Source: Candidatus Hydrogenedentota bacterium (GTDB lineage: Bacteria; Hydrogenedentota; Hydrogenedentia; Hydrogenedentales; SLHB01). Taken from it: a stretch of DNA of 64,000 nucleotides. Positions 162 to 51,061 of the stretch are shown one piece after another. Made by a program: the position numbers and the translations under genes. The stretch's first letter is position 1. Every line of letters begins with the position of its first letter. The notes beneath the pieces were generated by a model, which did no database searches, was not told where the DNA came from, and was given only the letters and a program-made list of their open reading frames with translations. Where the stretch lies: the NCBI GenBank assembly GCA_029552745.1, contig JAKPDK010000160.1, positions 1 through 64,000 of the forward strand, written 5' to 3'.

Positions 162-2405
162 TCAGGGTTCCCGGCGCCTTGCAATGAGTTCTTGTGCAAG
201 GACCTTTTCTAAATCCTCATATACGAGACGGACTTGAGCGATCTTTTCCTTGAACTCCTTTGCACATGAAGCTATCGCGAGGTCATAGGGCATGGTCGCA
301 GGGTCATCGACCATTTTTAAGTGACGATCCATGTCTTCATCCATTTCTTGCAAGATCTGTTTGCACCACTGAATAAGCCCGGGTGCTTCTTCGATACTCC
401 ATGTCCGAAAGCCATTTCGTACTACGTAGATCGGCGTTGTGTGAGCCGCCGAACCGTCATGCCCCAGTACATGGATAGCAAACCATCCCCCGTATCCCAC
501 TTCGACGGTCTTCGTCAGGAAAAGCTCGGTTTGCTCCGGATCATCGGACACGCTCTCCTCAATGCATTTACCATTTCTGACAACCATGAGACGTTTTGGT
601 GCGGACTGTCCCCTTAGCCCCCAAGCTTTGACCTTTAACGTGAGTGTGCGGTTCTCAGCGGATACGATTTCTCCTCCCGGAAGCACACCGTCCATAGAAA
701 AATCAATCATCGGTCCGTTCGTTACAAATGTTTTCCCTGCCTTGAGCCCATCAAACCATGCATCAGGATCAAACGGCCTCTCGCCTAGATACACATAGAC
801 TCTCACCTCACCCACTGATGAGCCGTAAGGGGTATCGGATCCGGCAGAAGCTGCTAATCGGAAACCGAGGTTCAGAAACTTGTAATAGAGTTCAGGCTCC
901 AAGGTGTTGCACTGCATGATTGCCCCGAAGTCCGATTTTTGCAAGGGCATCAACATAGCCAGATCACGTTCGCCGTTGAATAGCCTGTAATGTGATATGT
1001 GCGCATGTCCGTAAAGTCCGCCTTGGCGATGAATCTCGTCGGCAACCCAGTCCGAAAACAGGTATTTGTCCTCGTCGCGAACGAGCTCCTGTACATTCAA
1101 TCCAATCGTATGGCCAAGATAAAAGCGAGGATCTTCCTGCCCCGGAACCAAGACTCTGTCACCCACTTGATAACGGAAATCTTTTCCAAACCCGCGTTGG
1201 GGATACCAAAGCCGCAGCCAGTCGCCCATGGTTAGGATGTTCGCCACATGGATATCCGCCGCAACCGCCCACTTCATTAACCTTGCCGCATCCTGGTTTG
1301 TCATAAGTCTTGCGTGCACGTGGTCATCGCCTGACCACCATCCCAAACGCTTCATATCCGTCCATCGTATCAACTGGTAATCGCGAGTAGTCGTCTTTCC
1401 TTCCTCTATCCGAAAGACGTCGCGAATAGGCTCAAATTCGACACCATGGTGTATAAATATCTCCCATTCCCCGTCGGGCAAGGCATTTGAAAACTCCCCG
1501 TCGGCCAACCAGTACAAACCTGCCCATTGCCCTGCAACTCGCAGCGCCATAGGTTGTTCAAAACCAAAATCCGATGAACCCGCGATATTGCCTGTCTGTG
1601 AAGCCATATCAATGAAACTACCGGGTTGATACAACGTGTTTGTCGGACGGTGAACGAGCCGCACGAGAGCTGATGTGATCTCCCCCATCTCGTCTCGAAT
1701 CGTAACCTTGAGGTGCCCGACGGGACGGCCAGTTATTTTGAGGATAGCGAGGCGGGAATCTTTCTCATCGGAGTCTCGAACAAACAAAACGTGATGTTTG
1801 GATGAACCGGCAGGTACTCGCTTAAAGACCAAAAGATGCCACGTGGTACCCTTTTCGCCAAAAAGCAGACGGGGAGCAGCGCCCGGCTCGCTCAGAACTT
1901 CTAAATCCAAAGACGACACTTCGAACCGTACACCGGAACCCGGCCTCTCGATACGCAAAAGGACAGCACCTGCTGCTCCAGGCAAATTGATCGTAATCGG
2001 ATTGAGCCTCAATCCTCGCAGGTCGTCAACCGGAACAAAAATGTTCGAAATTTTTTCGACAAGATGCGCCAGTTCATGCTGTGCTAATGTTCGACGTTTT
2101 GCCTGCTCCGGTGTCTCTTGGATGCCCGCAGGCATAGCAGTAGAAGATTCTTCGAAAAGTCTTACAATTTGGCTTAAGGCGATTGTGTTCTGTTCGTTCA
2201 ACAAATACCCACCGTATCTTAGTAGAGTCTGGGCAAACTCCTTCGCGTGAATCGCTGGCGGTTCAGGCTGGATACCTGCCAAAGCGCGTTCTTCATCCAA
2301 CGCTTCTTCTGAACCGTGTGCGTAGGCTATGCTCGTCCGGAAAAGTAAACTGAGCAAAAATAACATCCCAACCATGACACAACCATAGAATATGCTTTGA
2401 CTCAT
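162..2405 (-). CDS. Exported CehA/McbA-type PHP-domain metallohydrolase (paralogue 2)
   Basis: Predicted exported hydrolase of the CehA/McbA group, named after carbaryl hydrolases and belonging to the PHP metallophosphoesterase-like fold. The start was placed at the ATG at 2405 because TAGGAGGTTC precedes it; the frame is open 12 codons further upstream without such a site. The first ~28 residues are a hydrophobic signal peptide ending near AYAHG. About 350 residues of beta-rich, carboxypeptidase-regulatory-like sequence follow, then the PHP core beginning at GWWSGDDHVHAR, with further likely metal-binding positions in YGHAHIS and SAGSDTPYG. The last ~150 residues form a small beta domain and a helical tail. 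It shares architecture with the protein encoded at 7047-9266, suggesting duplication within the operon. The substrate is unknown, and the CehA name does not imply carbamate hydrolysis. The gap to the upstream gene is 61 bp. Confidence 0.85.
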   Translation of the reverse strand: MSQSIFYGCVMVGMLFLLSLLFRTSIAYAHGSEEALDEERALAGIQPEPPAIHAKEFAQTLLRYGGYLLNEQNTIALSQIVRLFEESSTAMPAGIQETPEQAKRRTLAQHELAHLVEKISNIFVPVDDLRGLRLNPITINLPGAAGAVLLRIERPGSGVRFEVSSLDLEVLSEPGAAPRLLFGEKGTTWHLLVFKRVPAGSSKHHVLFVRDSDEKDSRLAILKITGRPVGHLKVTIRDEMGEITSALVRLVHRPTNTLYQPGSFIDMASQTGNIAGSSDFGFEQPMALRVAGQWAGLYWLADGEFSNALPDGEWEIFIHHGVEFEPIRDVFRIEEGKTTTRDYQLIRWTDMKRLGWWSGDDHVHARLMTNQDAARLMKWAVAADIHVANILTMGDWLRLWYPQRGFGKDFRYQVGDRVLVPGQEDPRFYLGHTIGLNVQELVRDEDKYLFSDWVADEIHRQGGLYGHAHISHYRLFNGERDLAMLMPLQKSDFGAIMQCNTLEPELYYKFLNLGFRLAASAGSDTPYGSSVGEVRVYVYLGERPFDPDAWFDGLKAGKTFVTNGPMIDFSMDGVLPGGEIVSAENRTLTLKVKAWGLRGQSAPKRLMVVRNGKCIEESVSDDPEQTELFLTKTVEVGYGGWFAIHVLGHDGSAAHTTPIYVVRNGFRTWSIEEAPGLIQWCKQILQEMDEDMDRHLKMVDDPATMPYDLAIASCAKEFKEKIAQVRLVYEDLEKVLAQELIARRREP

Positions 2406-2466
2406 GTTCCTTGAACCTCCTACAAGTGATGGAAACCTCATAGCTTTAGTCTGACCTTGAATACAA

Positions 2467-3276
2467 TTAGCTTCTTCTCACGAATATTTCGGCGAAAAGA
2501 GACCGTTTGCCCGTTACAATCTTTGCTTCTCCAGGTACCGAAAAATCCTTGGCATTCGGTGGAAACTCTTGCCCCTTCGCCTGTGTCCGTTCAACAAGTT
2601 GCAACGGAACCCGCAAATTCCAGTTGTCCCCTGTATCTTCGACATCTGCAACTTGGCCAACAAATCTTCCTAAGTCTGATACTGATAAGCGCACCGCCTG
2701 GCCGGGCAAAATCCGTTGAGTACCCTGCTTTGGTATGACAGCGCGAAATTCATATTTCTCGGGAACGATGATGAAGGCAATTCTCTTTTTCCCAGGAGAG
2801 GGGGCATTTATTTTCGAATCTTCCTGAAGCTGAAAGATTCCCGACTCCGGTGCTCTTATTTGTTCCAGCTGCTGAAAATCGGGACTCAGTAGATTTTCGG
2901 CTGAAGATAGGGTTTCCACAACGCATGAAAGTGTCCCATCACCGTCCCGAAGAAGCGAGAGAGCTTCCGCAACTTTTTGGTGTGCTTTAACCTGCCGGGC
3001 TAAATTTCGGTCTTTAGTTCCCTCACAAATGACATCTCCTGTGGTGACCATAGTGCCCTGTTCCACAAGATAGCGCAAAACACAAAAATCTTCATCGACC
3101 TCCAAAGGCACCGAAGAACATAACACTTTGCCGGAGACTTTGGTGACAACTTCCACTGTAGTGAAGGCAGAATAGAGAACAAATACAAAGACCCCAAGCG
3201 AAAGCAAATATCCCGTGACTTCACAGAACAGCACAAATCGTCGTGAAAACTTTGACCTTATAAACTTTTGTTTCAT
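2467..3276 (-). CDS. Short HlyD-like membrane fusion (adaptor) protein
   Basis: 269 residues. A basic N-terminus is followed by one membrane segment (about residues 13-38, around TGYLLSLGVFVFVLYSAF) and then a beta-rich periplasmic part. The pattern VEVVTKVSGKVLCSS followed by short repeats with VEQGTMVTTGDVIC resembles the first half of a biotinyl-lipoyl (HlyD) domain, and ESGIFQLQ... the second half. It is shorter than most HlyD-type adaptors because the long coiled-coil hairpin is nearly absent, so it might not reach an outer-membrane channel. It starts 18 bp after the stop of the ABC half-transporter gene and has AGGTAGGACGG upstream of its ATG. Its position next to two exporter genes supports an accessory role in export. 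The family call is tentative because it rests on pattern and context. Confidence 0.65.
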   Translation of the reverse strand: MKQKFIRSKFSRRFVLFCEVTGYLLSLGVFVFVLYSAFTTVEVVTKVSGKVLCSSVPLEVDEDFCVLRYLVEQGTMVTTGDVICEGTKDRNLARQVKAHQKVAEALSLLRDGDGTLSCVVETLSSAENLLSPDFQQLEQIRAPESGIFQLQEDSKINAPSPGKKRIAFIIVPEKYEFRAVIPKQGTQRILPGQAVRLSVSDLGRFVGQVADVEDTGDNWNLRVPLQLVERTQAKGQEFPPNAKDFSVPGEAKIVTGKRSLFAEIFVRRS

Positions 3277-3294
3277 GCCGTATTTCCGTCCTAC

Positions 3295-5124
3295 CTAAAC
3301 AACAGTCTGAACGGACTCGTTCACCCAGAGTCTGAAATAAAACTGTCCTTTTTCCATAAGTTCTTCGTGGGTTCCCGTTTCCACAATCTGCCCATGATGC
3401 AACACAACAACCCGGTCGGCACTTTTTGCCGTCAACACATTGTGCGCGACAATAATTCGCGTCGCGGACGCGCAAAAGCGGTCTACCTCTGTCACCACTT
3501 CTTTTTCTGTAACAGGGTCTAGGGCTGATGTGGCTTCATCCAACAAGAGAATGGCCGGTTGTCGAATGAGCGCACGGGCAATGGCAACACGCTGTTGTTG
3601 TCCCCCTGATATGCCTCCCGCTTCGTTCAACAATGTTTGATAACCGTTCGGAAGACGCAAAGCGAATTCATCGACACGCGCCGCGTGCGCGGCTTGTTGG
3701 AAAAGCTCGTCCGAGGCACGGTGATTGCCAAATCGAATATTTGCCTCAATGGTATCTGCAAACGTGACTATTTGCTGGGGAACGATTGCCATCCCTTTTC
3801 GTAAGTCTTCTTGTTTTACCGTTCGCACATCTACCCCATCGATTAGAACACGACCTTCTTGTGGATCATATAAGCGCAGGATCAACCCCAGCAGGGTCGA
3901 TTTTCCCGCACCTGTATGTCCGACAATGGCTAACTTTTCCCCAGGTCTAACAGATAAGGTGAGATTGCGTATCACAGGATTGTCTTGGGTATATCCAAAC
4001 GATACGTTTTGGAGATCGACTGAGCCATGCTTTATGAAAAAGACGTTCGACTCTTCCGGCTCAGGCACACTCGGTTTTATAGCGAGCGTCTCCAACATGC
4101 GCTCAGCAGGGACGAGCTTTTGTCGAACTAATTGCACAGTGGAGATAACGTCCTCAAAGGGACGTATCAGCATGATTACAAGTCCACCTACCGCTCCCTG
4201 TTCTCCAAAAGTCAGGGAACCCTGAATGACGAACCACCCCATAACGGTGCCCAAAATGCCCCAAAATGCCCCCAAAGCGACAAAAGTGAAATAATTATCA
4301 AACTGAAGGAGAACATCCCTCATGAACCGGGAACGCGCAGAGCGACAAGCTTGGTTTCCATACCAAAAGCGGGCAAGACGCTCCAAATTATAGGCTTTGA
4401 CGAGTTTCCAAGGGTAAAGAACTTCACGGCACACGGACTCGAGGCGTTGCGTTTCAACCCGATATTGCCTGTCCCACTTCCGGATACTTGTAGCAATTTT
4501 GTGTTTCACGGCAAAGAAGAGGACGAGGTATATTGCCACAGGTATTATTAGCCACCAGCCAAAACTTTGAATCACAAAAACCACAACGATAACCCGCTGC
4601 AACACTGAAAATACCTTTGGAATTACCTCAGATGAGAGAAACGCCGCATCTTCACAGTCGTTGGTACTTCGAAACATGTGTTCCCCCACGGGACGGCTGG
4701 AGAAATCGGTAACCGACAAAGTCTGGACGTGGTGGAAGAAATCATGTTTTAGGGTTACAGCAATTCGCGGCATCAGATAGGCGGACATCACATTACACGG
4801 TGTGCCACCGGCATCCGCCCGTTCGGCTCCCGCAACATATCCCAGAATGCGCATGAGGATGCCCACAAAGACCGAAACGGCTGTAATCTTTAGTAGGAGT
4901 ACCATATCCCGATGGGGGAAAGCTTCATCAAGTATTCGAGGAACCAACAGAGGGGGAATAATGCCCAAGAAGGACAAAGCTATACTAGATAGAAGACGAA
5001 GGATCAATTTATCCCAGTATGGCAAGAGATACCGTTGCAGGTGAAACAGAATTCGGATACGTTCTCGCAACGGCAAACGACTGGAGTCGACAACTTCTTT
5101 GGCATGAACGTTAAGTCTGATCAT
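3295..5124 (-). CDS. ABC exporter half-transporter, canonical ATPase motifs
   Basis: 609 residues: an N-terminal six-helix ABC exporter membrane domain (roughly residues 35-330) and a C-terminal nucleotide-binding domain. Walker A is GHTGAGKST, the signature is ISGGQQQRVAIARAL, Walker B with the catalytic glutamate is ILLLDEATSALD, and the switch histidine lies in IIVAHN. The ATG at 5124 is preceded by AAGGTAGA, which lies in the last codons of the upstream ABC gene, so the two genes are probably translationally coupled. Together with its neighbour it should form a heterodimeric inner-membrane exporter. The cargo cannot be read from the sequence. There is no peptidase C39 domain, so the substrate is probably not a leader-peptide bacteriocin processed by the transporter itself. 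Confidence 0.93.
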   Translation of the reverse strand: MIRLNVHAKEVVDSSRLPLRERIRILFHLQRYLLPYWDKLILRLLSSIALSFLGIIPPLLVPRILDEAFPHRDMVLLLKITAVSVFVGILMRILGYVAGAERADAGGTPCNVMSAYLMPRIAVTLKHDFFHHVQTLSVTDFSSRPVGEHMFRSTNDCEDAAFLSSEVIPKVFSVLQRVIVVVFVIQSFGWWLIIPVAIYLVLFFAVKHKIATSIRKWDRQYRVETQRLESVCREVLYPWKLVKAYNLERLARFWYGNQACRSARSRFMRDVLLQFDNYFTFVALGAFWGILGTVMGWFVIQGSLTFGEQGAVGGLVIMLIRPFEDVISTVQLVRQKLVPAERMLETLAIKPSVPEPEESNVFFIKHGSVDLQNVSFGYTQDNPVIRNLTLSVRPGEKLAIVGHTGAGKSTLLGLILRLYDPQEGRVLIDGVDVRTVKQEDLRKGMAIVPQQIVTFADTIEANIRFGNHRASDELFQQAAHAARVDEFALRLPNGYQTLLNEAGGISGGQQQRVAIARALIRQPAILLLDEATSALDPVTEKEVVTEVDRFCASATRIIVAHNVLTAKSADRVVVLHHGQIVETGTHEELMEKGQFYFRLWVNESVQTVV

Positions 5125-5129
5125 GACGT

Positions 5130-7013
5130 CTACCTTATATGCCCTTGCGAGAAAGTATTCGGAGAAGCGTGTTTATGTAGCTCGGCTGCCCATAAGCCAG
5201 CGTAAACGCCTTGTGTATCCCTTATCAGGTCTGTATGTTTTCCACACTGAACAATCTCGCCCTGCTGCATCACCAATATGAGGTCCGCGTCTTGTACGGA
5301 AACAATGTGATGAGCGATGACAAGACAGGTCCTGCCTCGGGCTGCTTCGTTCAATTGGGCTAAGACTTCGATTTCTGTAAGAGGATCTAATGAGGAAGTG
5401 GCTTCATCAAGATACAAGAATTTTGGATTTCTAATAAGCACACGTGCAATAGCAATGCGTTGGCGTTCCCCCATAGAAAGGTTTCCCCCTTCCAGTAACT
5501 CGGTATCGAGCCCTTTTGGCAGCGATTGAACCAGTGGTTCCAGCCCTGCGCGTTGTATCGCTTTCAGAAGTTCGTCCTCAGTGGCGCCGGGGTTACCAAT
5601 CAACATATTGTCTCTTATAGTAGCGGAGAAGACGAAATTCTCCTGTAAAACAACGCTAACGTGCTGCCGATAGCTTTCGAGGTCGATATCCTTGAGGTCA
5701 TATCCATCAATAAGTACCCGTCCTCTGGTTGGGTCGCAGAATCGCATGAGAAGGTTAAATAGAGACGTTTTCCCCGCACCCGAAACACCCACAATCGCAA
5801 CTTTTTGTCCTGGAGCGACCCCAAAGCTAATGCCCTTCAGTACATCCTCGCCGTCATTCCCATATCGAAACCAAACGTCTTCAAACTGTACCCGTCCCAA
5901 AGGATTGGTCAATTTTATTGCATTGGCTTTGCTCTGAATACTAGGAACAATGTCAAGCGTCTCCAACATACGCTGAGCTGGGACGGCATCCACCCGAAGT
6001 CGTTGAATGGTTGACATAAGAGCAAACAAAGGATTCTGGATGAGCGCGATCATTTCGAACATAGCCATGAATTGGCCCGTCGTCATTTTTCCGATTATGA
6101 CGAAGTACCCGCACACGATGGTGTGCGTAATAGCCCCTACAAAAAAACTTTGGAGAAATTCACCGCCTTCTCTCCAAGCCGAGAGAAGAGAAAAGAACGC
6201 TAACCGGGCACGCATTACCTCTTTCAGACGGTTGAAATAGCGGTAACGGACAAGTCTTTCCAAAGCGAGTGATTTAGTGAGAAAGAACGCTGTGAAGCAC
6301 TCTTGGAGTATAGCCGCCACACGCTGTTCTGCTTTTCGAGTGTATTGCTGGGCTTTGTAGATCCAGCCCACCACAACATGACTATAGAAAAAGTAAACTA
6401 GAATGTAGAACCAGACAAGCCCAACCACCGTTGGACTGACGGCAAGAACGACAGAAACAGTTACCAGCATCTCCGCCACGGATTCGAGAACTTCTGGAAC
6501 AGCATTTGCCACAAAACCTGTTGCCACTTCCGTGTCGTTGTTGATGCGGTACATGTTTTCGCCAATAGGGCGTGATTGATGAAAAGCCAGGTGCATCCGT
6601 TGAACGTGGTCAAATAACAACCTCTTAAAAACGATGTTGAGACGCAAAAGGATGTAGTGGCAGATATTTGCATAAATAATGATGAAAACAAGAATGTGTG
6701 TCGTGAGGACGAATTTCGCCCCCGACCATAAAACGAAGTGATAAAGGTCCTTTTCCAAAATGCCGTCATCAACGATACGTACTGTAATCAACGCACTCAA
6801 TATGGAAACCACCGTATGCGCCAGACGATACAGAACACGCAGCAGCATCTTGTCCCAATAGGACAAAGCATACGGCAAAAACCGCATGAGAAGACGGGCA
6901 AAACCGATCACACCCGAGTAATGACTCTCTAACGTTTCCTGAGAACCGGAAGGTGTAGATTCATTTTGCCCATAAAGCGCGGGTGAAACTAGACTGTCTG
7001 CATTTTCAGTCAT
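5130..7013 (-). CDS. ABC exporter half-transporter with altered signature motif
   Basis: About 627 residues, with an exporter membrane domain (about residues 50-350) and an ATPase domain. Walker A is GVSGAGKTSL, Walker B is FLYLDEATSSLD and the switch histidine is in LVIAHH. The signature reads LSMGERQRIAIARVL, so the second conserved position of LSGGQ is replaced. Its partner at 3295-5124 has the canonical version. One altered and one canonical signature is common in heterodimeric exporters with asymmetric ATP sites. The frame is open to a TTG at 7046 that directly follows the stop of the upstream gene. I chose the ATG at 7013, but neither start has a good Shine-Dalgarno sequence, which fits translational coupling to the upstream gene. 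Confidence 0.92.
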   Translation of the reverse strand: MTENADSLVSPALYGQNESTPSGSQETLESHYSGVIGFARLLMRFLPYALSYWDKMLLRVLYRLAHTVVSILSALITVRIVDDGILEKDLYHFVLWSGAKFVLTTHILVFIIIYANICHYILLRLNIVFKRLLFDHVQRMHLAFHQSRPIGENMYRINNDTEVATGFVANAVPEVLESVAEMLVTVSVVLAVSPTVVGLVWFYILVYFFYSHVVVGWIYKAQQYTRKAEQRVAAILQECFTAFFLTKSLALERLVRYRYFNRLKEVMRARLAFFSLLSAWREGGEFLQSFFVGAITHTIVCGYFVIIGKMTTGQFMAMFEMIALIQNPLFALMSTIQRLRVDAVPAQRMLETLDIVPSIQSKANAIKLTNPLGRVQFEDVWFRYGNDGEDVLKGISFGVAPGQKVAIVGVSGAGKTSLFNLLMRFCDPTRGRVLIDGYDLKDIDLESYRQHVSVVLQENFVFSATIRDNMLIGNPGATEDELLKAIQRAGLEPLVQSLPKGLDTELLEGGNLSMGERQRIAIARVLIRNPKFLYLDEATSSLDPLTEIEVLAQLNEAARGRTCLVIAHHIVSVQDADLILVMQQGEIVQCGKHTDLIRDTQGVYAGLWAAELHKHASPNTFSQGHIR

Positions 7014-7046
7014 TTTGCTGTTATTGTTTGAACACCAAGGTGGCAA

Positions 7047-9266
7047 CTACGGAATCAGAGTTTTATGAGCGTGCAGCAATGCTTGGAGTCTTTTTATACC
7101 TTCCTGAACATGTGCCATGGCTTCTTCGCGTTGTTCTGCGTTCTGGAAATGGCCTCTCGTACGGATTTCTTCAAGATGTCGCTGAAATCTGTCCAGCCAA
7201 AACTCGGCATCTTCCGGTATGAACACAGGCCGCCCTGCCACATGCACGTACACGGCGCTCGTATGGGCAATATGAGGACGCGCTGTATGATAGTCCTCTG
7301 CCGTTCGTATCATGGTGTATTCGTCGTTTGGACTACACCGCGCGACAAACCACCTGCTTTTGTCTGCAGTCGTGTCAAAAGACATTGACACTGACTTGTC
7401 TTGGGTGGTTACCGACTTGATCACCTCTCCATTAGAGACAATCTGCAGGTTGCCCAGCGGGTAACGGGAAAGGGCGTTAAGTTCAATCTTTATGGGCTCC
7501 CCCTGTTTTAACTCCAATACGCTCCCCACATCACTCCCGTTAACCTTCAATACAAGCAAAGGACCGGAGGTGACAAAGGTTCTCCCGGCCCGAATTCCGT
7601 CCAACCATGCGTCATATGTAAAATGCGGTTGGACCTTCACATAGGTTCGAGCACAACCTACTAAACGTGCCGGATGGTCACTGCCGTTTCCCAAAGGCAC
7701 ACGTACCCCGCAATTGAGAAGTCGATAGTAATAGGGCGCATCCAGTTGGTCGATACAATCTGCCAAACCTAACACTGCGTTGACGGCCGTATCTCCATTT
7801 TCAAAGGGACCCAACCCATGAGCCTCGCAGTAAATACCGCCCTGGGCATGACAATTGTCAATCGCTGTTTTATTCGTGGGATAGTCAATAGCGTTTTCGT
7901 CGCCGCCACTCCCCCGTCCGGTCGCTACCGGTTGAACAATCTCCTTTATTCCAAGCAGATTTATGTGACCATATATGTTATCGTTTCGATATTCTTCCCC
8001 CATTTGAATATGATACTCATTCGAGCAGTATCCGGGAACAGGTCCCATGGGAAAATGGTCGGGCTTGATGAAAGGCCCGTTGGGGGTCCACTGAAACAGC
8101 GTCAGATTATTTATCACCCGAACATCTTCGGCACGCTGCACCATAGCCAATAGGTCCAGATCCTCGTTGATGTCCCATGAATTCTTGACCCAGTGTACGT
8201 GCGTATCCCCGGAAATCCAGCCTTGTTCTTTCATATCGATGAACCGCCGCACATTAAAGGAGACCTGTCCAGTTTCACCCGGTGCCAATGAGATTGTCTT
8301 AGTAACAATCTCAGATTCGAAGCCTCGTTCAACCGTCACTTCAGTTTTTCCGGGAGGAACCAGAATCTCAAACTCGCCTTGAGTGTAGGAAAATGGAACT
8401 TTCCACATAGCAGGCCGGAATATCACCGGTTTCTCCGTCAAAGTCGGCTCATCGGCAAACGGTTTTGTATGACGATAAACGTGATCGTCGCATAAGACAT
8501 AAACACGCGCCGGACAAGAAGTCTTGGTATCGTCGTCCGATATACTTCCCCTAAGAAGTGCGGGTTCTTGAATCAGAACCGGCAGAGTCACTTCTCGAGT
8601 ATTCCCGCCGGTATCATCCAGAATTATCCGAAAACTATTTGCACCATCGTTTTCAAAAATAAGCTTTGTAAGCAAGTAAATAGATTCCCCTGGTGCCAGC
8701 TGTATAGCAGACCAGGGATACGGGTCGACAGGGTCAGTCTTTAGAATGCCACTCAGGGAGGTGTTGCTAGTATTTATAACCTGCAAGAGGACAAATCGCT
8801 CAATTCCTCGAACAACGGCGATTTCTTGCGGGCCATTGCACTCAAGTTTGTCGTTTTGCCAGTCTACACGCAAAAACAGCAATTCTTCTGACAATTTTTT
8901 GAAAAATGCATCGACATTCGCCGAAGTTTTTAGCCGCTCATCGCGAGTCCTCTGGTTTTTTCGCCAGCCTTTTGTATGTTGGTAGATATCTTCCGCCAAT
9001 TCAATCGCCTCGGTTTGATTGCGCATCGGACATTCATAGAAGAGTCTGCTGAGTAAGCGATAGTAATGATCAAAACTGGTATCACTGAGGCCCTCTTGGG
9101 TGTTATGAAGAAGGGACACGGGTGCGACCTCCTGTGCGAAAACTTCGTTTGCTTCCGAAAGAAAGCAGACAAACAACAACAAACATGGCAACACGCATCG
9201 CATATACTGTTTAACTGTTTTCTGAAAAACCTGTAACTTTTGTTTAAAGCCTATGAGCCTATTCAT
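7047..9266 (-). CDS. Exported CehA/McbA-type PHP-domain metallohydrolase (paralogue 1)
   Basis: About 739 residues. The ATG at 9266 was chosen because it forms an ATGA overlap with the stop of the nitrilase-like gene, the usual sign of translational coupling; the frame is open 14 codons further upstream. A signal peptide covers residues 1-45 (hydrophobic core VLPCLLLFVCFL, likely cleavage after EVFAQ). About 330 residues of beta-rich N-terminal domain follow, then the PHP core at GWISGDTHVHWV with additional metal-site candidates in YCEAHGLGPFE and GNGSDHPARL. The C-terminal part resembles that of the paralogue at 162-2405 (GRTFVTSGPLL here, GKTFVTNGPMI there). It probably acts as a hydrolase outside the cytoplasm; the substrate is unknown. 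Confidence 0.86.
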   Translation of the reverse strand: MNRLIGFKQKLQVFQKTVKQYMRCVLPCLLLFVCFLSEANEVFAQEVAPVSLLHNTQEGLSDTSFDHYYRLLSRLFYECPMRNQTEAIELAEDIYQHTKGWRKNQRTRDERLKTSANVDAFFKKLSEELLFLRVDWQNDKLECNGPQEIAVVRGIERFVLLQVINTSNTSLSGILKTDPVDPYPWSAIQLAPGESIYLLTKLIFENDGANSFRIILDDTGGNTREVTLPVLIQEPALLRGSISDDDTKTSCPARVYVLCDDHVYRHTKPFADEPTLTEKPVIFRPAMWKVPFSYTQGEFEILVPPGKTEVTVERGFESEIVTKTISLAPGETGQVSFNVRRFIDMKEQGWISGDTHVHWVKNSWDINEDLDLLAMVQRAEDVRVINNLTLFQWTPNGPFIKPDHFPMGPVPGYCSNEYHIQMGEEYRNDNIYGHINLLGIKEIVQPVATGRGSGGDENAIDYPTNKTAIDNCHAQGGIYCEAHGLGPFENGDTAVNAVLGLADCIDQLDAPYYYRLLNCGVRVPLGNGSDHPARLVGCARTYVKVQPHFTYDAWLDGIRAGRTFVTSGPLLVLKVNGSDVGSVLELKQGEPIKIELNALSRYPLGNLQIVSNGEVIKSVTTQDKSVSMSFDTTADKSRWFVARCSPNDEYTMIRTAEDYHTARPHIAHTSAVYVHVAGRPVFIPEDAEFWLDRFQRHLEEIRTRGHFQNAEQREEAMAHVQEGIKRLQALLHAHKTLIP

Positions 9267-11110
9267 GGAGATACTTCTTCTGGATGCCTTTTGGGCCAAT
9301 GCTTCCACGCTGCCTTATCCGCCTCATAACGTTGCAGAAGTGCATCCTTATCATTCGGCATAAAATAGATGCATCCTCTTCTGTAAAAGGTTTTCCCTTT
9401 CTGAACAGAAACAAAAGGCGCGGGACCTGTGTGCAGACAAGGGTACCCACCGTTGCACATCAACACCATAGGCGCGGAGTCCCACGCATAACCCACGAGA
9501 TGTTTGCCATCCACAGTTTCAGCCACCATCAGATTAACGTCGGCTACCTGATCTAACAGCCAAAGATTGGGTTGTTCCCGAGGACCTTCATACGTGACAG
9601 GGCTTTCGTGACAGCGAATAATTACCCAGGGCGCTTTGCCCATCTCTTGAGAGGTCGGTGTAGTTTCAGACAACGGAAGCCACTTCCCCTGACAGCGAAT
9701 AAACACGCGACTCACATCAAAAGGATAGTGAAACTCAGGCGCATTACCCAGGCGAAGACAAGGATTCATATCTACCCAGGCTAAATCGTTTTCTGTCTCG
9801 TTCCGGATAGAAAACTCCAGAAATACGGCATCACGGTAAGGGCGCACGCTTGCGGCGAAATGAAGTCCCTCTTTTGTCTGGACCTGATAAGTCCACTCCC
9901 CGCTACGATCATCATGGTTCCATTTGGGCCATGGTGATAATGAGCTTAACTGCAGACAATCCGGTTTGTAATGGTCTATGAAGTGGAACCCCATAGGCGA
10001 AGACAACGTTTCCGGCAAACGTAACTCCGCCCAACCTGTCATCCAACGAGACTTCACATGCACGGCGAGAGGCGAGAGAGGTGTACCCACCTTCATGGAA
10101 CTATCGGGCAACACGGGAGTCTCAACAGGAACACCTTCCACCTCACAGTGCTGGGGGATATCAGGAGGGTCAGGTAAATTGTCATAGTACCGCCATACTG
10201 GGTGTTCCCCGAGAATCTCCGAATATACATCCGGGACCCGTTGATAGAACTCCCGAGCATGTTTTCGATGAAGTCGCAGTTGCGATAAAGGCAAATCTGC
10301 CACGATGTAATCTTCTCGCCCTTCTGATGCGACTGCCTTTATTTTACCCGGCCATTCCGCGATCATGGTGCCCCCGCCGATGGCCTTATTTGTGCACACC
10401 AGATGTACGGCATTTCTAAAGGCATCGGCTTTCACAATGTAGTCCTCCACCATACCACTCCGGGCATTGAGCCAAAGCAGGACTTCCGCGCCCTTCAAAG
10501 AGAGGATTCTAGGAACTTCTGGGAAATAGCCATCGTAGCAGGTGAAAATACCAATGCGGCCAAAATCTAAGTCAAAGACCGGCAAGGCATCGCCCGGGGT
10601 CATGCAGCCCTCTGGATCACTTTGAGTAGGAGGCCACAGAAAAGGTGGTTCCCCCACTGCGGGATGGATTTTGGCAAAACGCCCGACAAGATTGCCCTTT
10701 CTATCAAACAAGAGGGCTGTATTCTTGTAATTCCCTTCCTCGTCAACTATTTCGAAACAACCCGCGACAACATATAAACCGTTTCGAGAAGCTGCCTCAC
10801 CGATACGTTGCGTACTCCGATTAGGAACCCGAAACTTGCCTAGCAACAATTCTGGAAACACCACAAGGTCTGCTTTGTCAGCGCCGGCACGGTCAATATA
10901 ACCGATCACCGAATCTACAGTATCCTGTGGCTCATCATCTTGGCCTTGCCAAATCCAAGTGCCATTTAACTGAACGGCAGCAACTCGCACCGAACTGTAA
11001 GCCAATTGTGACTGCGTCAGCGGTGGAGGAGAATTCCCTTGGGAAAAACCTGACGAACAAATGAAAAAGAGCATGGCACATCCCATTTTGATTTTCACTT
11101 TCCTAGCCAC
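9263..11110 (-). CDS. Exported nitrilase-fold hydrolase with extra C-terminal domain
   Basis: About 615 residues. Residues about 40-320 are a carbon-nitrogen hydrolase (nitrilase/amidase) domain with the Glu-Lys-Cys triad visible in VVFPELLLGKF, GRFAKIHPA and GIFTCYDGYFPE. Such enzymes hydrolyse nitriles, amides or ureido bonds. A hydrophobic stretch near the N-terminus (CAMLFFICSSGFSQ) suggests export, which is unusual for the family. About 290 residues after the catalytic domain form a beta-rich region of no recognised family. The start is uncertain: GTG 11110, GTG 11098 and ATG 11086 are all possible, and the basic KVKIK just before the hydrophobic segment favours one of the GTGs. It is the first gene of the operon and a paralogue of the shorter enzyme at 15756-16646. 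Confidence 0.85.
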   Translation of the reverse strand: MARKVKIKMGCAMLFFICSSGFSQGNSPPPLTQSQLAYSSVRVAAVQLNGTWIWQGQDDEPQDTVDSVIGYIDRAGADKADLVVFPELLLGKFRVPNRSTQRIGEAASRNGLYVVAGCFEIVDEEGNYKNTALLFDRKGNLVGRFAKIHPAVGEPPFLWPPTQSDPEGCMTPGDALPVFDLDFGRIGIFTCYDGYFPEVPRILSLKGAEVLLWLNARSGMVEDYIVKADAFRNAVHLVCTNKAIGGGTMIAEWPGKIKAVASEGREDYIVADLPLSQLRLHRKHAREFYQRVPDVYSEILGEHPVWRYYDNLPDPPDIPQHCEVEGVPVETPVLPDSSMKVGTPLSPLAVHVKSRWMTGWAELRLPETLSSPMGFHFIDHYKPDCLQLSSLSPWPKWNHDDRSGEWTYQVQTKEGLHFAASVRPYRDAVFLEFSIRNETENDLAWVDMNPCLRLGNAPEFHYPFDVSRVFIRCQGKWLPLSETTPTSQEMGKAPWVIIRCHESPVTYEGPREQPNLWLLDQVADVNLMVAETVDGKHLVGYAWDSAPMVLMCNGGYPCLHTGPAPFVSVQKGKTFYRRGCIYFMPNDKDALLQRYEADKAAWKHWPKRHPEEVSP

Positions 11111-11260
11111 TCGTATTAGGGAAACTTTGCATCCTGTACAAATACTACCCTGAATTATGGGGAAGTTCTTCCCGCAAGACCCCCTTTAGTTTCTTGAATT
11201 CTCAGATCGAGCGTCTAATGACTGGTTGAGGAAACCGATGGAGGGGAAGCCGATGAATGA

Positions 11261-12166
11261 TTAATATCGGGTAGCTTTTAACATTTCGCGGTATTCCGTG
11301 GGGCTCATCCCCAAATGTTCTTTAAACACCGCGTAGAAACGACTCGCAGAACCAAAACCCGCTTCAAACGCGATATCCAAAACACGCAAGTCTGAAGTGG
11401 CAAGTCGCATTTGCGCGTGGCTTAGTCTTTGCATGGTAATAAAGTCGATCAAAGTTGTCCCCGTCCGGTGGCGAAACACTTGTACGGCGTAATTGGGGTG
11501 TAAGCCCACCGCTTCGGCTACATCGGGCACCGTGATAGGGTTCATATAGTTTTCAGAAATATATTTTGCCATCTGCTGTACTTTGGCAAGCGCACCACTC
11601 ACTGAAAATGACCGGTTGCTACTGAAGTGCTTGCCCGCGTCATCCTGGCCAGAAAGTCTGTCGGCAACCCTTCGGAACCAGGCTTCAATTTCGAGAAGCA
11701 TCGTCTTGCGGGAGTCGAGCGTGTCTCGAATCAGATCTTCCATCCAGACTTCACATTGTTTTTCAAAATAACCCGCCACATACTCACATGGTGGAAAAAT
11801 CATATCGCCATTCAGCAGAACGGACACCAGTTTTTCGGGTACTTCCCACATGAGAAACCACTGAATGGGAACGGTAAGTCCTTTAAAGTGACTGCCTTGC
11901 TCCAGTCGAACCACTTGGTGAGGCATTCCAGCCCAAAATACTACTAAGGATCCTTTAGGAACGTTCACCAAGTGTCCACCGTGTAAGTACGTGAATCCGC
12001 CGTGCTCGAGAAAGTTAATCTCTATATCGTTATGCTGATGGCACTCTGGCATAATCTGCGGCGAAGAATGCCAGACAGCAAGTCCAAAGTTTGAGCGCTG
12101 TTCACGAGGGGTAATGAATATTTCTTGATCACACTTAGATTTCAAGAGTATCCGTCCCGCTTTCAA
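11261..12166 (-). CDS. AraC-family transcriptional regulator
   Basis: 301 residues. The N-terminal ~150 residues form a cupin-like sensing domain (histidines in CHQHNDIEINFLEHG, later GMPHQVVRLEQG), as in MelR-type sugar regulators. The C-terminal ~100 residues carry two helix-turn-helix units: PDVAEAVGLHPNYAVQVFR and LDIAFEAGFGSASRFYAVFK, ending with the family signature MSPTEYR. It lies 150 bp upstream of the export operon on the same strand and 103 bp from the divergent glycosidase-like gene. AraC regulators of this type usually activate adjacent catabolic genes in response to a sugar, so either or both neighbours may be targets. The inducer cannot be inferred. Confidence 0.93.
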   Translation of the reverse strand: MKAGRILLKSKCDQEIFITPREQRSNFGLAVWHSSPQIMPECHQHNDIEINFLEHGGFTYLHGGHLVNVPKGSLVVFWAGMPHQVVRLEQGSHFKGLTVPIQWFLMWEVPEKLVSVLLNGDMIFPPCEYVAGYFEKQCEVWMEDLIRDTLDSRKTMLLEIEAWFRRVADRLSGQDDAGKHFSSNRSFSVSGALAKVQQMAKYISENYMNPITVPDVAEAVGLHPNYAVQVFRHRTGTTLIDFITMQRLSHAQMRLATSDLRVLDIAFEAGFGSASRFYAVFKEHLGMSPTEYREMLKATRY

Positions 12167-12269
12167 GAAGAACTTTCTCGTAATATCTTTTATCGTATCG
12201 TCAGTATAACATGATGCCCAAAACGACGGAAAACAACCGCTTTCTGAAAATCCGTAGGAGGAAATTCGA

Positions 12270-14639
12270 ATGTTCTTTCTAGGTTATTTTGCTTTAGAGG
12301 TATTGAAACTATTCGTTAGCGGACAAGTCGAAAATCCCGCCGCCACAGACATAACGAAACAAACCGTCAACGAGACAAGAGTTGCGGACAATCCGCTGTT
12401 GAGCAAATTTCTTGACCTAGAAAGAGGCGAGGTACTGCGCTGTGAAGGAGCTGTAAAGCAGCCATGGATTGTATCCTTAAGCGAAAACTTGCACACCACA
12501 CCTTTTGAAACTCTTTTTTACAGTGTCACGGTGAAGCTGGAAAAGATTGACCCCAGCGGCGATCTCTTCTTTGGCGTACGAATAACCGACCATTCCGGCA
12601 GCGAAATTAGTCATCTCTTTGCTGCCCGACTTCCGAGCTTCTCCTTGAACCAATGGCAAGAAGTGAAAGCCGTTTTCGCATCCTCCGCCCGCGCCGCGAA
12701 AGTGGAGTTTCAAGTCCATGGGACGGGAAACCACATTTTCTGCGTCAGCAATCCCCAATTGTCGGCGATATCTGTCCCGGCATCGGATGAATTGAAGCGC
12801 ATTCCAGAAACAATAACCTTGGAGAATGACATACTGAGGGTGCATTTCAATAGCGATGAGTTCCGCATCGTCGCAACGGACAAACGTTGTTCAAAAACAT
12901 GGGACACCTTCGGCGAAAACTTGCACGTGAAAATCACCCGCGTCGCGCAGACCAGTCCTATCCAGGCTGTTGCTAAGGGGTACTATCTTGACGCAATTGC
13001 CGCCATTACAATAGAACTTCGCCTTGAGGAAACCGAGCCCGAGTTTTCCATACATACCCACATGGCACCCGACGTGCCCATGGCGCTATGGGCTGGAGCG
13101 TTCTCCACAACTCCCACATTTTGCGCACCAGAAAGAGGGCATGAGCTTGTCGTACCACTTGGAGAGGGCTTCCTCTATCCTACAGACAATGAGAAAATTC
13201 CAAACCACATGCTCCAACTGGCAGATGGGACTGGTTTGACCATGCCGTGGTTTGGTGTGTTCGATAATAGGAGCGGCTGTGCCGCCATGTGTTTCACCCG
13301 AGATGAAAATGATGCTTTAGCCCGCTTATATTACCGTCAAGAGGGTGGGAAGAAAGCCGGAGCAGTTACCCTGGACTGGCTTCCTCAAAAGAATTTTTGG
13401 GGCTACGACCGAACGGTCAAATACTGGTTTACTGACTCGAGTGGGTATGTTGCCCTATGTAAACGGTATAGAAAAGAAGCGAAAGAGACGGGAAAACTTG
13501 TAACCTTTGAGGAAAAACGAGTACGGCGGCCAGCAGTAGACCTGTTGCTAGGCGCACCAAACTGCTGGTTTCAATTTCTCTGGCACCTCCCCGACAAGGC
13601 TAAGAGACTCGAATACTTGAGATATCTGCATGATCGCGGCGTCGACCGAATGCTATTCTCGAATGCGGACGCACTGGACTCGACCGATGAGATCATTTCG
13701 TGGGGATATGTGCCTACGGCATACGATTTGTATAGCGACGTTTGGCCTGAAGAAGAGGCTGAACTGGCTCAGGTACCAGGACGTTCTTATGGCTATCCCG
13801 ACAAAATCCTGGTTCGGTACAATGGGACGCTGCAACGAGGATGGGTTCAGAAGACGTCCGCCGGTGAATTTCCTTCCTATGTGCTTTGTACAACCCAACA
13901 AGTCGGTTGGGCAAAGGAACGAATTCCTCTTATCCCTCCGTCTCAAAAAAGGTTGGCACATTTCTTTGACACGACTGCCGGTTTGCCTCTTTTCGAATGT
14001 TACAGCCCTCAGCACCCAATGACGCGAGCCGATGACAAATCAGCCCGGATCGAATTGTTTAAGTATGCCGACTCGCTGGGACTGCTTGTCGGTTCTGAGA
14101 TGGGAGTGGACTGGGCAGTACCCTACCTTGCTTATTGCGAAGGTATGATGAGCCCTGTACCCTATCGACACCCGGAAGCCGGCTACCTTAAACAAGATAT
14201 GGAGCCGGATGAGCACACCTACCAATATCAACTAAACCCAGCGGTGCGTGTGCCTTTGTGGGAGTTGGTTTACCACGATGCGTGTATTGCTTACTGGTAC
14301 TGGGGCGATACGACAAATACCTTTACAAAGCTTTGGAACGTACGAAATCTCTTCAATGCCTTGTATGCCACCCCGCCCCTGTATCTTATTTTGAAAGACG
14401 AAGAAGTCTATTTGAAACAACGCGACCGCATGGTAGAAACGCATCTTCAACTCAAACCCGTATTTGAAGCGGTGGGTTTTTCTGAGATGATGTCTCATGC
14501 GTTTTTGTCAACCGACCGCAAACTGCAAGTCAGTAGATTTTATAACGGCGCAGAGGTTGTCGTGAATTTTTCTGGCGAGGCGAGAAAATATCGGGATACT
14601 GAAATACCTGCCCAGAGTTTTAAGGTTCTTGTTCCCTGA
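12270..14639 (+). CDS. Large glycoside-hydrolase-like protein (DUF5696/GH101-like appearance)
   Basis: 789 residues with TAGGAGGAAATTCGA before the ATG. The N-terminus has a short hydrophobic stretch but no convincing signal peptide. Residues about 60-170 look like a jelly-roll carbohydrate-binding region, residues 175-400 like a galactose-mutarotase-type beta-sandwich (LENDILRVHFNSDEFRI...), and residues 430-700 like a TIM barrel with acidic motifs such as FSNADALDS and VGSEMGVDW. A C-terminal beta domain follows. This order matches large bacterial glycosidases of the GH101/DUF5696 type; I cannot fix the family or catalytic residues. It is divergent from the AraC regulator, a common arrangement for a regulated sugar-hydrolysing enzyme. 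Confidence 0.7.
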   Translation: MFFLGYFALEVLKLFVSGQVENPAATDITKQTVNETRVADNPLLSKFLDLERGEVLRCEGAVKQPWIVSLSENLHTTPFETLFYSVTVKLEKIDPSGDLFFGVRITDHSGSEISHLFAARLPSFSLNQWQEVKAVFASSARAAKVEFQVHGTGNHIFCVSNPQLSAISVPASDELKRIPETITLENDILRVHFNSDEFRIVATDKRCSKTWDTFGENLHVKITRVAQTSPIQAVAKGYYLDAIAAITIELRLEETEPEFSIHTHMAPDVPMALWAGAFSTTPTFCAPERGHELVVPLGEGFLYPTDNEKIPNHMLQLADGTGLTMPWFGVFDNRSGCAAMCFTRDENDALARLYYRQEGGKKAGAVTLDWLPQKNFWGYDRTVKYWFTDSSGYVALCKRYRKEAKETGKLVTFEEKRVRRPAVDLLLGAPNCWFQFLWHLPDKAKRLEYLRYLHDRGVDRMLFSNADALDSTDEIISWGYVPTAYDLYSDVWPEEEAELAQVPGRSYGYPDKILVRYNGTLQRGWVQKTSAGEFPSYVLCTTQQVGWAKERIPLIPPSQKRLAHFFDTTAGLPLFECYSPQHPMTRADDKSARIELFKYADSLGLLVGSEMGVDWAVPYLAYCEGMMSPVPYRHPEAGYLKQDMEPDEHTYQYQLNPAVRVPLWELVYHDACIAYWYWGDTTNTFTKLWNVRNLFNALYATPPLYLILKDEEVYLKQRDRMVETHLQLKPVFEAVGFSEMMSHAFLSTDRKLQVSRFYNGAEVVVNFSGEARKYRDTEIPAQSFKVLVP

Positions 14640-14705
14640 GCCTAGGGAGAAATAGACTCGTTTCAGGTACCATGACATTACGTGCCATGCCTTTTATGTA
14701 AAGAT

Positions 14706-15623
14706 TCATGCGGCTATAGTTAAACGGTTTCTCCCGGAATTTTTGCTTTGGTACATCAGCATATCAGCACGTCGCAAAAATTCCCGGCTTTCTTCGTCTG
14801 GGTGCAATAAGGTCCCACCGATGGATATCGTCACGGTGAGCATCTGATTACTGACTTCTTGACTCGAATGAGCCACCAACACGAGCAAACGATTCCCGAC
14901 ACTTGACAAAGCCTCCAACGTCACATTAGGAAGTATGGCAACAAACTCTTCTTCTCCCCATCTCCCCAAAAAGTCATAAGAACGCATGGCGCCCGCGAGG
15001 GTACGTGCCACCGTCTTCAGAACTAGATCGCCGACCTCATGCCCATAGGTGTCATTGACCCGTTTGAAGTGGTCAATATCTATCATGAGCAGACCCAAAC
15101 GATTCTGAAGCCGTTTTGCTTCTTGGACACGCTTTTCGAGCATTTCCTCCGTGTAACGACGGTTGCCAATGCCCGTAAGAGGACAGATCAACGCCATTTC
15201 GCGCAAAGACTCCGCCTCGCGGATCGCGGATATCTCGGGAGTCATATCCCGAAAGGTTTCCAGTGCGCCGACTAGCGTTCCGGAACTATTATAAATAGGG
15301 GCAACGGAGACAAATACAGGTACCCGGTGGCCGTCTTTGTGATGAAGGTAAACATGAGCCTGACGCTGTTCTTTGTCCTGAAGGCAAGCCTCCAAGGGAC
15401 AATGTCCCCGACAAAGGGAACGCCCGTCATCGTCAACATGAATCAATAAGTTGTCCGAGCAAGAATGCCCCAAGACTTCCTCGCGGCTATAGCCGGTTAT
15501 ACGTTCCGCCGCAGCATTCCAATAAAAAATTCGCCGCTCCGTGTCGGTAAAATACACTCCATCATAAATATTGTCCAAAAGTACCCGAAATAGCGATTCC
15601 TGCCCCAGCTCATCAATGTCCAT
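14706..15623 (-). CDS. PAS-GGDEF diguanylate cyclase with GEEEF variant active site
   Basis: 305 residues. An N-terminal PAS domain (about 10-130) senses an unknown signal; it contains a cysteine-rich loop (CSDNLL...LCRGHCPLEAC) seen in many PAS-GGDEF proteins. The C-terminal domain (about 140-305) is a GGDEF diguanylate cyclase, which makes cyclic di-GMP from two GTP. The active-site loop reads GRWGEEEFVAIL, so the second glycine of GGEEF is a glutamate. The substrate-binding DIDHFKRVNDTYGHEVGD segment is intact. Activity is likely but not certain with this variant. AGGAGGG precedes the ATG. It has no membrane segment and no obvious output partner nearby. Confidence 0.93.
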   Translation of the reverse strand: MDIDELGQESLFRVLLDNIYDGVYFTDTERRIFYWNAAAERITGYSREEVLGHSCSDNLLIHVDDDGRSLCRGHCPLEACLQDKEQRQAHVYLHHKDGHRVPVFVSVAPIYNSSGTLVGALETFRDMTPEISAIREAESLREMALICPLTGIGNRRYTEEMLEKRVQEAKRLQNRLGLLMIDIDHFKRVNDTYGHEVGDLVLKTVARTLAGAMRSYDFLGRWGEEEFVAILPNVTLEALSSVGNRLLVLVAHSSQEVSNQMLTVTISIGGTLLHPDEESREFLRRADMLMYQSKNSGRNRLTIAA

Positions 15624-15755
15624 AACCTATTCCCTCCTATTGTATTCTATCGCAAAACCGGGAATAGGCTCCACCGAAATTTATCCGTGGCATCGAGGTT
15701 ATACAGAAGTATCGAAAAGAATATACTTAATGAGGCATGAGGGGACAATCTCATT

Positions 15756-16646
15756 TCACAATTGAGATTTGTTGACAAACTGAGAACACTCCGGATAGTC
15801 CCAAGGGATATCCGGATAGTCTTGCCACATTTTGATGTCCTGGCAGAGTAGACCGTATAAGTCAGGACGCCGTTGATGCATAGTGCGCAAATGCTTTCGA
15901 TGACGACGCAAACCTGCTAGATCAATGGTTGCATGAACACAGGCATCGCCCGGCTCCTTAATACGCGGGAAAAGCCTGCCCTCTTCTTTCTCTCCTTCCC
16001 CAGAAACATAAGCGCCAAACGGACCCGCGAAACCTGTGTTTCGACCATTGGTGATACACCCCCCTACCACACAGCCGTAAGCAGAGGCTGCCGAAAGACA
16101 AAAGAAGTCCTCCACCATACCCTCACGGCCATTGATCCATAAGATGACTTCCGCCCCACTGTATGAGGTGCACCCCCAGGCTTCGGGGAAATATCCATCG
16201 TAGCATTGGAGAATCCCCACAGGACCAAAATCTAAATGAAATACGGTGAATTGGTGGCCAAGAATCCCGCGCGCCTCTGAATCCCAATTTGGCAAGGGCG
16301 GCCACCAATGGGGACCCGGACCGGATGCGGGGTGCGTCTTGTAATAACGGCCCAAGAGATTGCCACTGCGGTCGACCATCAACGCTGTGGTAGAATAACG
16401 CTCGTTGTGCGTTTCCACCAAGCCGGCTATCGCATACATGTTATGCATTCTTGCTAGCTCAAAAAAACGTTGGACATTTTTGTCCTGAATAGTTATGCGA
16501 TTACCCAAAATGTATTCCGGGAAAACGATCAAATCCGAACCATAATAACTTGCTTCTGAGAAAAACGCCGGCATGCGCTCCACGGCATAATCGGGATCGT
16601 TCTTATCAGTGAGTTGCACAAGCGTCACACGTGCCTGGTCTTTCAC
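15756..16646 (-). CDS. Cytoplasmic nitrilase-fold (carbon-nitrogen) hydrolase
   Basis: 296 residues, the normal size for a single-domain carbon-nitrogen hydrolase. The triad is visible: Glu in IVFPEYILG, Lys in RYYKTHPA and Cys in LQCYDGYFPE. The residues around the cysteine and lysine are almost the same as in the exported enzyme at 9263-11110, so the two are paralogues. This one has no signal peptide and no extra C-terminal domain. The start is GTG, with GGAGAG about 11 bp upstream. The substrate is unknown; the HWWPPLPNWDSEA insertion near the active site resembles the LWPPTQSDPEG segment in the paralogue and may shape a shared substrate pocket. Confidence 0.88.
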   Translation of the reverse strand: MKDQARVTLVQLTDKNDPDYAVERMPAFFSEASYYGSDLIVFPEYILGNRITIQDKNVQRFFELARMHNMYAIAGLVETHNERYSTTALMVDRSGNLLGRYYKTHPASGPGPHWWPPLPNWDSEARGILGHQFTVFHLDFGPVGILQCYDGYFPEAWGCTSYSGAEVILWINGREGMVEDFFCLSAASAYGCVVGGCITNGRNTGFAGPFGAYVSGEGEKEEGRLFPRIKEPGDACVHATIDLAGLRRHRKHLRTMHQRRPDLYGLLCQDIKMWQDYPDIPWDYPECSQFVNKSQL

Positions 16647-31314: not shown

Positions 31315-31499
31315 CTCCCCCTCGTTCCGCCCAACGAATGTCCGCAAAGGACGGACGCTTTTACCTCTAAGGAAATAAATGACTTATCCAATCTGTTGTG
31401 GTTATAAGAAGATGGAACTACTTGCTAAAGAGTACGAAATCTTCTCAGCCCATTCATTAAAGTAACATATAAGCTGAGCAATGGCAGGTTACAACTGAC

Positions 31500-32990: not shown

Positions 32991-32991
32991 G

Positions 32992-33747: not shown

Positions 33748-33793
33748 CGCATAAAAAAAAAGAGATTATTCTGGGACGATTGGGAAATGTATC

Positions 33794-50984: not shown

Positions 50985-51061
50985 ACCTAAACATTTTCCA
51001 TGTCACACTAAACGCTGGCAGAGTTTTTCACCCAAAAGAACTGCTGATAAAAGGAGGAGTT

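Follow-up and report, generated by a model that had tools for sequence, protein, structure and literature searches.

The stretch analysed here (hereafter the window, 64,000 nucleotides) begins at the end of contig G000:C24 of a metagenome-assembled genome (MAG, code G000) of the phylum Hydrogenedentota, whose members are uncultured and poorly characterised. Six minus-strand genes occupy positions 162-11110. In 5' to 3' order they encode a nitrilase-superfamily amidohydrolase (nit615), a CehA/McbA-type PHP metallohydrolase (CehA-1), two ATP-binding cassette (ABC) half-transporters (ABC1 and ABC2), a short HlyD-like adaptor and a second CehA/McbA-type hydrolase (CehA-2). We favour the reading, with a probability of about 0.42, that this operon serves as an accessory to glycan utilisation under AraC control, the glycans probably being decorated and of galactose type. 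A glycan-accessory module of a few Hydrogenedentota is supported by gene co-occurrence and by gene neighbourhoods. The operon is real and its gene set is unusual, although all of its families are known.

Distribution and genomic neighbourhoods

Orthologs were sought in 68 genomes of the phylum and in a widened set of 386 genomes that includes other phyla. Within the phylum, ABC2, the adaptor and CehA-1 have orthologs in an identical set of three of the 68 genomes (G000, G015 and G025), and ABC1 lies beside ABC2 in each. The chance of such identical sets is 2e-5, assuming independence and ignoring phylogeny. The carriers span two families: G000 and G015 fall in one that holds many non-carriers, and G025 in another. 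The matching distribution of ABC2, the adaptor and CehA-1 supports the view that the hydrolases and the exporter belong together; to this extent the initial annotation, which had proposed an undescribed export system, holds. The CehA-1 orthologs are 46-51% identical to the window protein, the next match in the phylum is partial (E 4e-51), and no further ortholog was found in the 386 genomes. ABC2 has orthologs in G015 and G025 only among the 386 genomes, with the next matches at ~350 versus ~1190 bits. A contig scan with the ABC2 membrane domain returned the G015 and G025 loci only; two peptide patterns were used, and distant relatives may escape them.

The ABC1 orthologs in G015 and G025 are 49-61% identical. 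The ABC1 and ABC2 trees share one topology, ((window, G015), G025), G011, and the clade is recovered at 100/100 for ABC1. Midpoint rooting places ABC1 and ABC2, together with a pair in G030, in a clade of their own, separate from the other exporters sampled. The sister pair in G030 has a glycoside hydrolase (GH) gene of GH106 rhamnosidase-like type two genes upstream. No named family takes in ABC1 and ABC2, whose NCBIfam scores all stay far below cut-off; membership of a well-known family is what the initial annotation had named as counting against its proposal. Judged from its phylogeny, ABC1-ABC2 is a heterodimer clade of Hydrogenedentota.

The surrounding genes point to glycan breakdown. 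The glycan reading is favoured because the window holds a GH129-like gene and a second nitrilase gene (nit296), and because the G015 and G025 loci hold GH36, GH129, sodium symporter and AraC genes. On contig C652 of G025, AraC genes, CehA-1, a melibiase-type GH36 gene, a GH129-like gene, a sodium symporter gene and nit615 lie within 16 kb. On C480 of the same genome, ABC1-ABC2 come after an AraC gene, and a sulfatase gene lies still further upstream. In G015, one strand of contig C46 carries a GH63/trehalase-like gene, ABC1, ABC2 and the adaptor, and the opposite strand carries GH36, nit296 and a metallo-beta-lactamase-type gene; on C42 a symporter gene and CehA-1 lie near each other. The GH36 subfamily is present in 2/68 genomes, both of them carriers (G015 and G025), and matches alpha-galactosidases of solved structure. 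Set against the criteria for a polysaccharide utilisation locus, G025 has AraC, GH36, GH129-like and symporter genes, and the window has the AraC and GH129-like genes only.

The fused nitrilase tracks the GH129-like glycosidase. All three independent full-length nit615 relatives (3/3; G000, G025 and G013) lie within a few kb of GH129-like genes, and relatives of the window GH129-like gene itself are found near the nit615-type genes in G025 and G013. The G025 ortholog is 56% identical to nit615. In G013, a GH129-like gene lies directly upstream of the relative nit639 and is 57% identical to that of the window over the C-terminal 106 residues. Two genes had escaped the initial annotation, namely the GH129-like gene of the window (12270) and nit296 (15756). 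From such neighbours, the glycan may have alpha-galactose-type or anhydrogalactose-type residues.

Several observations weigh against this reading. The six genes form one operon in the window genome only, and no other searched genome has them within 15 kb. The initial annotation had made recurrence of the six families within ~15 kb, beyond close relatives, the test of its proposal, which in this strong form fails. As a whole, the association of the exporter with the hydrolases is one of co-occurrence in three MAGs; the adaptor (C503) and the ABC pair (C480) of G025 are on separate contigs. Neither the GH36 gene nor the symporter gene has an ortholog that we could find in G000. Glycosidase genes are very common in the phylum, so that neighbourhood alone is weak evidence. 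Motif discovery in 13 upstream regions gave no shared motif clearly above shuffled controls: widths 16 and 18 gave nothing, and width 20, one of the three widths tried, came out somewhat above the shuffles and is not relied upon. Finally, no outer-membrane channel gene is linked to the operon at the level of the locus, no genome-wide search for a partner having been made. The specific evidence is the rare GH36 gene in common, the recurring nitrilase-GH129 pairing and the AraC gene in common. Since G015 is 66% complete and the contigs of G015 and G025 are short, linkage in these genomes is perhaps underestimated.

Organisation of the operon and its products

Features of the operon and of the adjoining genes (window coordinates)
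Feature	Position	Strand	Description
CehA-2	162..2441	-	Putatively exported CehA/McbA-type PHP metallohydrolase; its family is widespread in the phylum; NF038032, 163 bits
Adaptor	2467..3276	-	Short, membrane-anchored, membrane fusion protein (MFP)/HlyD-like; one N-terminal transmembrane helix, split lipoyl/beta domain, very short helical hairpin
ABC2	3295..5124	-	Exporter-fold half-transporter, partner of ABC1; PF00005 and PF00664
ABC1	5130..7013	-	Exporter-fold half-transporter lacking a C39 peptidase domain; PF00005 and PF00664
CehA-1	7047..9266	-	Putatively exported CehA/McbA-type PHP metallohydrolase; NF038032, 155 bits
nit615	9263..11110	-	Putatively exported nitrilase-superfamily amidohydrolase (residues ~40-320) with an unnamed C-terminal beta-rich domain (~345-605)
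AraC/MelR-like regulator	11261..12166	-	HTH_18 and MelR-like match; probable regulator of the operon
GH129/DagB-like glycosidase	12270..14639	+	Divergent from the AraC gene; PF11308, 77 bits
nit296	15756..16646	-	Second nitrilase-superfamily amidohydrolase, no signal; PF00795

All six genes lie at the coordinates given by the initial annotation and hit the families it named, the adaptor by a weak HlyD family score, an N-terminal alignment with HlyD and a structural model. Their spacing is tight. The nit615 and CehA-1 genes overlap by an ATGA (gap of -4 bp, using the ATG at 9266), the sole such overlap in an operon for which ATGA or near-zero spacing had been described. The other pairs are separated by short gaps: 33 bp between CehA-1 and ABC1 (0 if the TTG at 7046 serves as start), 5 bp between ABC1 and ABC2, 18 bp between ABC2 and the adaptor, and 25 bp between the adaptor and CehA-2. 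Because of these spacings, the six genes very likely form one transcription unit, as predicted from their layout. The last gene ends 161 bp short of the contig end; the operon therefore may continue past CehA-2. Upstream of the operon, at a distance of 150 bp and on the same strand, is the AraC gene that had been noted before; its product probably regulates the operon. MelR is the nearest curated model to this protein, which falls below the cut-off (178/253 bits), and the AraC protein adjoining CehA-1 in G025 is 52% identical to it. The structures closest to the divergent glycosidase include the 3,6-anhydro-D-galactosidase DagB (5opq, E 8e-21) and a GH129 alpha-N-acetylgalactosaminidase.

Signal-like N-termini are found on nit615, CehA-1 and CehA-2, and on the nit615 and CehA-1 orthologs, by a heuristic based on hydrophobicity and an AxA motif. 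The export signals that the initial annotation had assigned to all three hydrolases are therefore plausible predictions.

The nit615 protein belongs to the nitrilase superfamily: it matches PF00795 (CN_hydrolase, E 4e-36), and the Glu-Lys-Cys triad E87-K147-C191 is intact and kept in its relatives. It scores below the cut-off of every nitrilase equivalog examined (carbamoylase, nitrilase, formamidase, Lnt), the best being 55.1/132.9 bits (Lnt) and 49/410 bits (AguB). Among solved structures, N-carbamoyl-D-amino-acid hydrolases are closest. Its predicted structure is poor, with a mean predicted local distance difference test (pLDDT) score of 50, and its Foldseek matches merely restate the nitrilase fold. 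The C-terminal domain also stands alone, in G007 beside a melibiase gene and in G000:C102 (L140:6513-10783) as a secreted protein followed at zero gap by a nitrilase gene, with a creatininase-family gene and a gene for a beta-helix protein. The latter arrangement is a separated form of the nit615 fusion. As the domain is also free-standing beside such genes, a chance joining with the nitrilase appears unlikely. G062 does not count as an additional, independent nit615 carrier, since its copy matches that of G025 at 100% identity over 570 residues and its symporter at 99.9%. The two contigs concerned, G062:C469 (L094) and G025:C652 (L092), come from MAGs of different families and most likely represent cross-binned contigs, to judge by this identity. 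In another phylum, contig G211:C125 (L145:3415-6520) encodes a signal-bearing nitrilase that is 48% identical to the catalytic part of the G025 nit615 and lies by a TonB-dependent receptor gene and by another gene whose product resembles a binding protein for metal uptake.

The second nitrilase, nit296, has a 71% identical ortholog beside the ABC module in G015 and homologs of 61-74% identity in many genomes of the phylum. This wide conservation led us to reject nit296 as a linked part of the system; it is probably a neighbour. Between nit296 and a DUF1559 pilin-like gene lies a gene for a small putative lipoprotein (16749-16973, minus strand, 74 amino acids, SIGC lipobox).

Both PHP hydrolases of the window, and the CehA-1 orthologs (141-143 bits), exceed the curated NF038032 cut-off of 80 bits and thus belong to the CehA/McbA family. 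In CehA-1 the HVH and further PHP motifs are intact, and its orthologs keep them; a sequence search found no relative of CehA-1 among solved structures. CehA-2 is tied to the operon by position only (the 25 bp gap). Its homologs, mostly 35-40% identical, occur in 20/68 genomes of the phylum, the window's own counted, and one in G025 lies ~20 bp after an arabinofuranosidase-like gene. With CehA-2 so widespread and the nitrilase accompanying GH129-like genes instead of the exporter, the six genes are not supported as a conserved unit. The G000 genome contains 12 NF038032 matches, 5 of them above cut-off; the 12 matches suggest that the family members act on diverse substrates.

The adaptor has no Pfam match. 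Its N-terminal ~80 residues align with E. coli HlyD (8dck, E 6e-11). In Foldseek its model resembles MexA, AcrA and BesA at E 1.5e-8 to 1e-6 and a probability of 1.0; the TM-scores are low and the mean pLDDT is 62, a moderate confidence. The N-terminal transmembrane helix and the split lipoyl and beta-barrel domains place it in the MFP superfamily fold. By contrast, it scores 24.5 bits against the 208.65-bit cut-off of the type I secretion HlyD model (TIGR01843), and no long helical hairpin is predicted, the hairpin helices having 22 and 12 residues. The model thus supports the fold class, membrane fusion protein, but not the fine details. Within the phylum, adaptor orthologs are limited to G015 and G025.

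Alternative readings and related systems

Because the adaptor is of the membrane fusion type, export is preferred to import and the ABC pair would work outward. The operon could form an undescribed hydrolase-coupled export system, in which a Hydrogenedentota-specific ABC exporter, a hairpin-poor adaptor, a secreted amidohydrolase and a PHP hydrolase serve one envelope-crossing compound, either finishing an exported conjugate or clearing a product of extracellular cleavage. We consider this somewhat unlikely. In a narrower version, the main idea of the initial annotation, the ABC pair and adaptor would export a compound made by the cell, such as a glycolipid or other conjugate, which the secreted amidase and PHP hydrolases trim outside. 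The combination of an adaptor with an exporter-fold ABC pair, the signal-bearing hydrolases of the same operon and the exclusive co-occurrence of CehA-1 with the exporter all agree with such maturation. However, the operon lacks genes for biosynthesis, for a precursor peptide and for a C39 peptidase, and none was seen in the G015 and G025 loci; the interval 162-16646 leaves hardly any free sequence for a linked precursor, a finding for this locus only, no genome-wide search for a precursor having been made. The glycosidase and symporter neighbours are catabolic, and nit615 tracks GH129-like genes, not the exporter. Maturation of an exported product is thus distinctly unlikely. By-product efflux would best fit a catabolic locus, with export of a made product as its main rival.

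Another possibility is that a general efflux operon (ABC1-ABC2-adaptor) and glycan-processing hydrolases are unrelated and co-transcribed by happenstance in one genome. Linkage in a single genome, the placing of CehA-1 and the ABC pair on different contigs in both G015 and G025, and the commonness of the CehA-2 family would all be expected. The identical 3/68 distribution of exporter, adaptor and CehA-1 and the congruent ABC1 and ABC2 trees argue against it, and we regard it as unlikely. Much less probable is uptake by the ABC pair of an oligosaccharide or conjugate freed by the secreted hydrolases. The type IV ABC importers IrtAB and YbtPQ, which take up siderophores (PMC10246721, PMC10967856), provide the precedent, and the locus is catabolic with no symporter ortholog found in G000; but a membrane-fusion-type adaptor is a hallmark of export, and neither a binding protein nor a siderophore-interacting domain is encoded nearby. 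The initial annotation had also raised detoxification, there of a toxic amide or ester. In the form considered here, nit615 and CehA-1 would cleave a toxic amide or carbamate outside and the pump keep the product out, independently of glycan use. Hydrolysis of carbamates (carbaryl) is a known activity of CehA/McbA enzymes (PMC8292978), and N-carbamoyl amidohydrolases are nearest to nit615 among solved structures. Yet resemblance to a carbamate-hydrolase family does not set the substrate, given the many family members in this genome, and the neighbours are glycosidases throughout. We hold detoxification to be the most improbable of these explanations; glycosidase, symporter and AraC neighbours favour glycan catabolism over either stand-alone role, export or detoxification. 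A role in anti-phage defence was rejected, the window proteins giving only generic ATPase matches to mad3/mad8 in PADLOC and no specific match to any system component.

The gene set was found neither in the literature searched nor in the genomes searched, in agreement with the initial annotation, which knew of no named system with it. The nearest parallel for the glycan reading is the AraC-regulated carrageenan locus of Zobellia galactanivorans, in which DagB acts and whose regulon lacks SusCD. In the part of that account available (PMC5698469), it shares with the window an AraC regulator, a GH129-like enzyme and cytoplasmic-membrane transporters; it differs in having GH127, sulfatases and sugar-oxidising enzymes, and a nitrilase, a CehA enzyme or an ABC exporter with adaptor are not mentioned there. 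The CehA/McbA carbamate hydrolases share their PHP domain motifs and above-cut-off NF038032 scores with the window proteins, which however are longer, with N-terminal regions and signal-like N-termini.

Among transport systems, NHLM/NHLP bacteriocin export (TIGR03796/03797) also joins two ABC proteins to one HlyD-like adaptor, but the window has neither a C39 peptidase domain nor a linked precursor gene, and its best scores (277/853 and 247/709 bits) fall far short of the cut-offs. Tripartite ABC-MFP pumps and type I secretion systems (HlyB/HlyD, MacAB) likewise combine an inner-membrane ABC protein with a membrane-anchored adaptor. Unlike these, the window ABC pair is heterodimeric with no C39 or C39-like domain (none was detected by Pfam), the adaptor scores far below cut-offs and no outer-membrane factor is linked. 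BesA of Borrelia is an adaptor that also lacks a long hairpin (PMC3807786), but it is part of a resistance-nodulation-division (RND) pump. Finally, the heterodimeric type IV exporter TM287/288 has two half-transporters encoded side by side and of similar length and fold, whereas the window pair belongs to its own Hydrogenedentota clade and is associated with an adaptor and secreted hydrolases.

Proposed role and other window features

In the glycan-accessory reading, the AraC regulator would respond to a sugar signal. Exported nit615 and CehA-1 would work outside the cytoplasm and cleave off substituents of amide, carbamoyl or ester type, as their families suggest, and this would let GH129/GH36-type enzymes act. 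Where present (G015 and G025), the sodium symporter would import the sugar. Together with the adaptor, the ABC pair would pump out a product, most likely a toxic by-product that is released or builds up; this would end up in the periplasm or leave by an outer-membrane channel encoded elsewhere. The window encodes an AlgE-like outer-membrane protein (PF13372, 39200-40807, plus strand) next to a DUF4832 protein, which suggests that such outer-membrane porins exist in the organism.

Elsewhere in the window, two SUF-type sets lie in tandem (29648-36399, plus strand). The first consists of a SufC-like ATPase and a small SufBD-core protein (311 amino acids), a pair which we take to resemble the minimal SmsCB pair; what reads as a full SufB-SufC-SufD-SufS set follows directly. 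Two adjacent large secreted paralogs (48567-53488, plus strand; 805 and 934 amino acids as called) have near-identical C-termini, and the first has no Pfam match. A cytochrome c552, an NrfA-type nitrite reductase (PF02335) with an N-terminal segment resembling a membrane anchor, is encoded at 41579-43081 on the minus strand.

If the glycan-accessory reading is true, a Hydrogenedentota lineage would couple a dedicated ABC-adaptor pump and secreted amide and PHP hydrolases to the breakdown of galactoside-type glycans, a combination that we did not find in the literature searched. Three proteins would also gain testable roles: an exported nitrilase fused to an unnamed domain, a CehA-type enzyme confined to this gene set and an adaptor whose hairpin is nearly absent.

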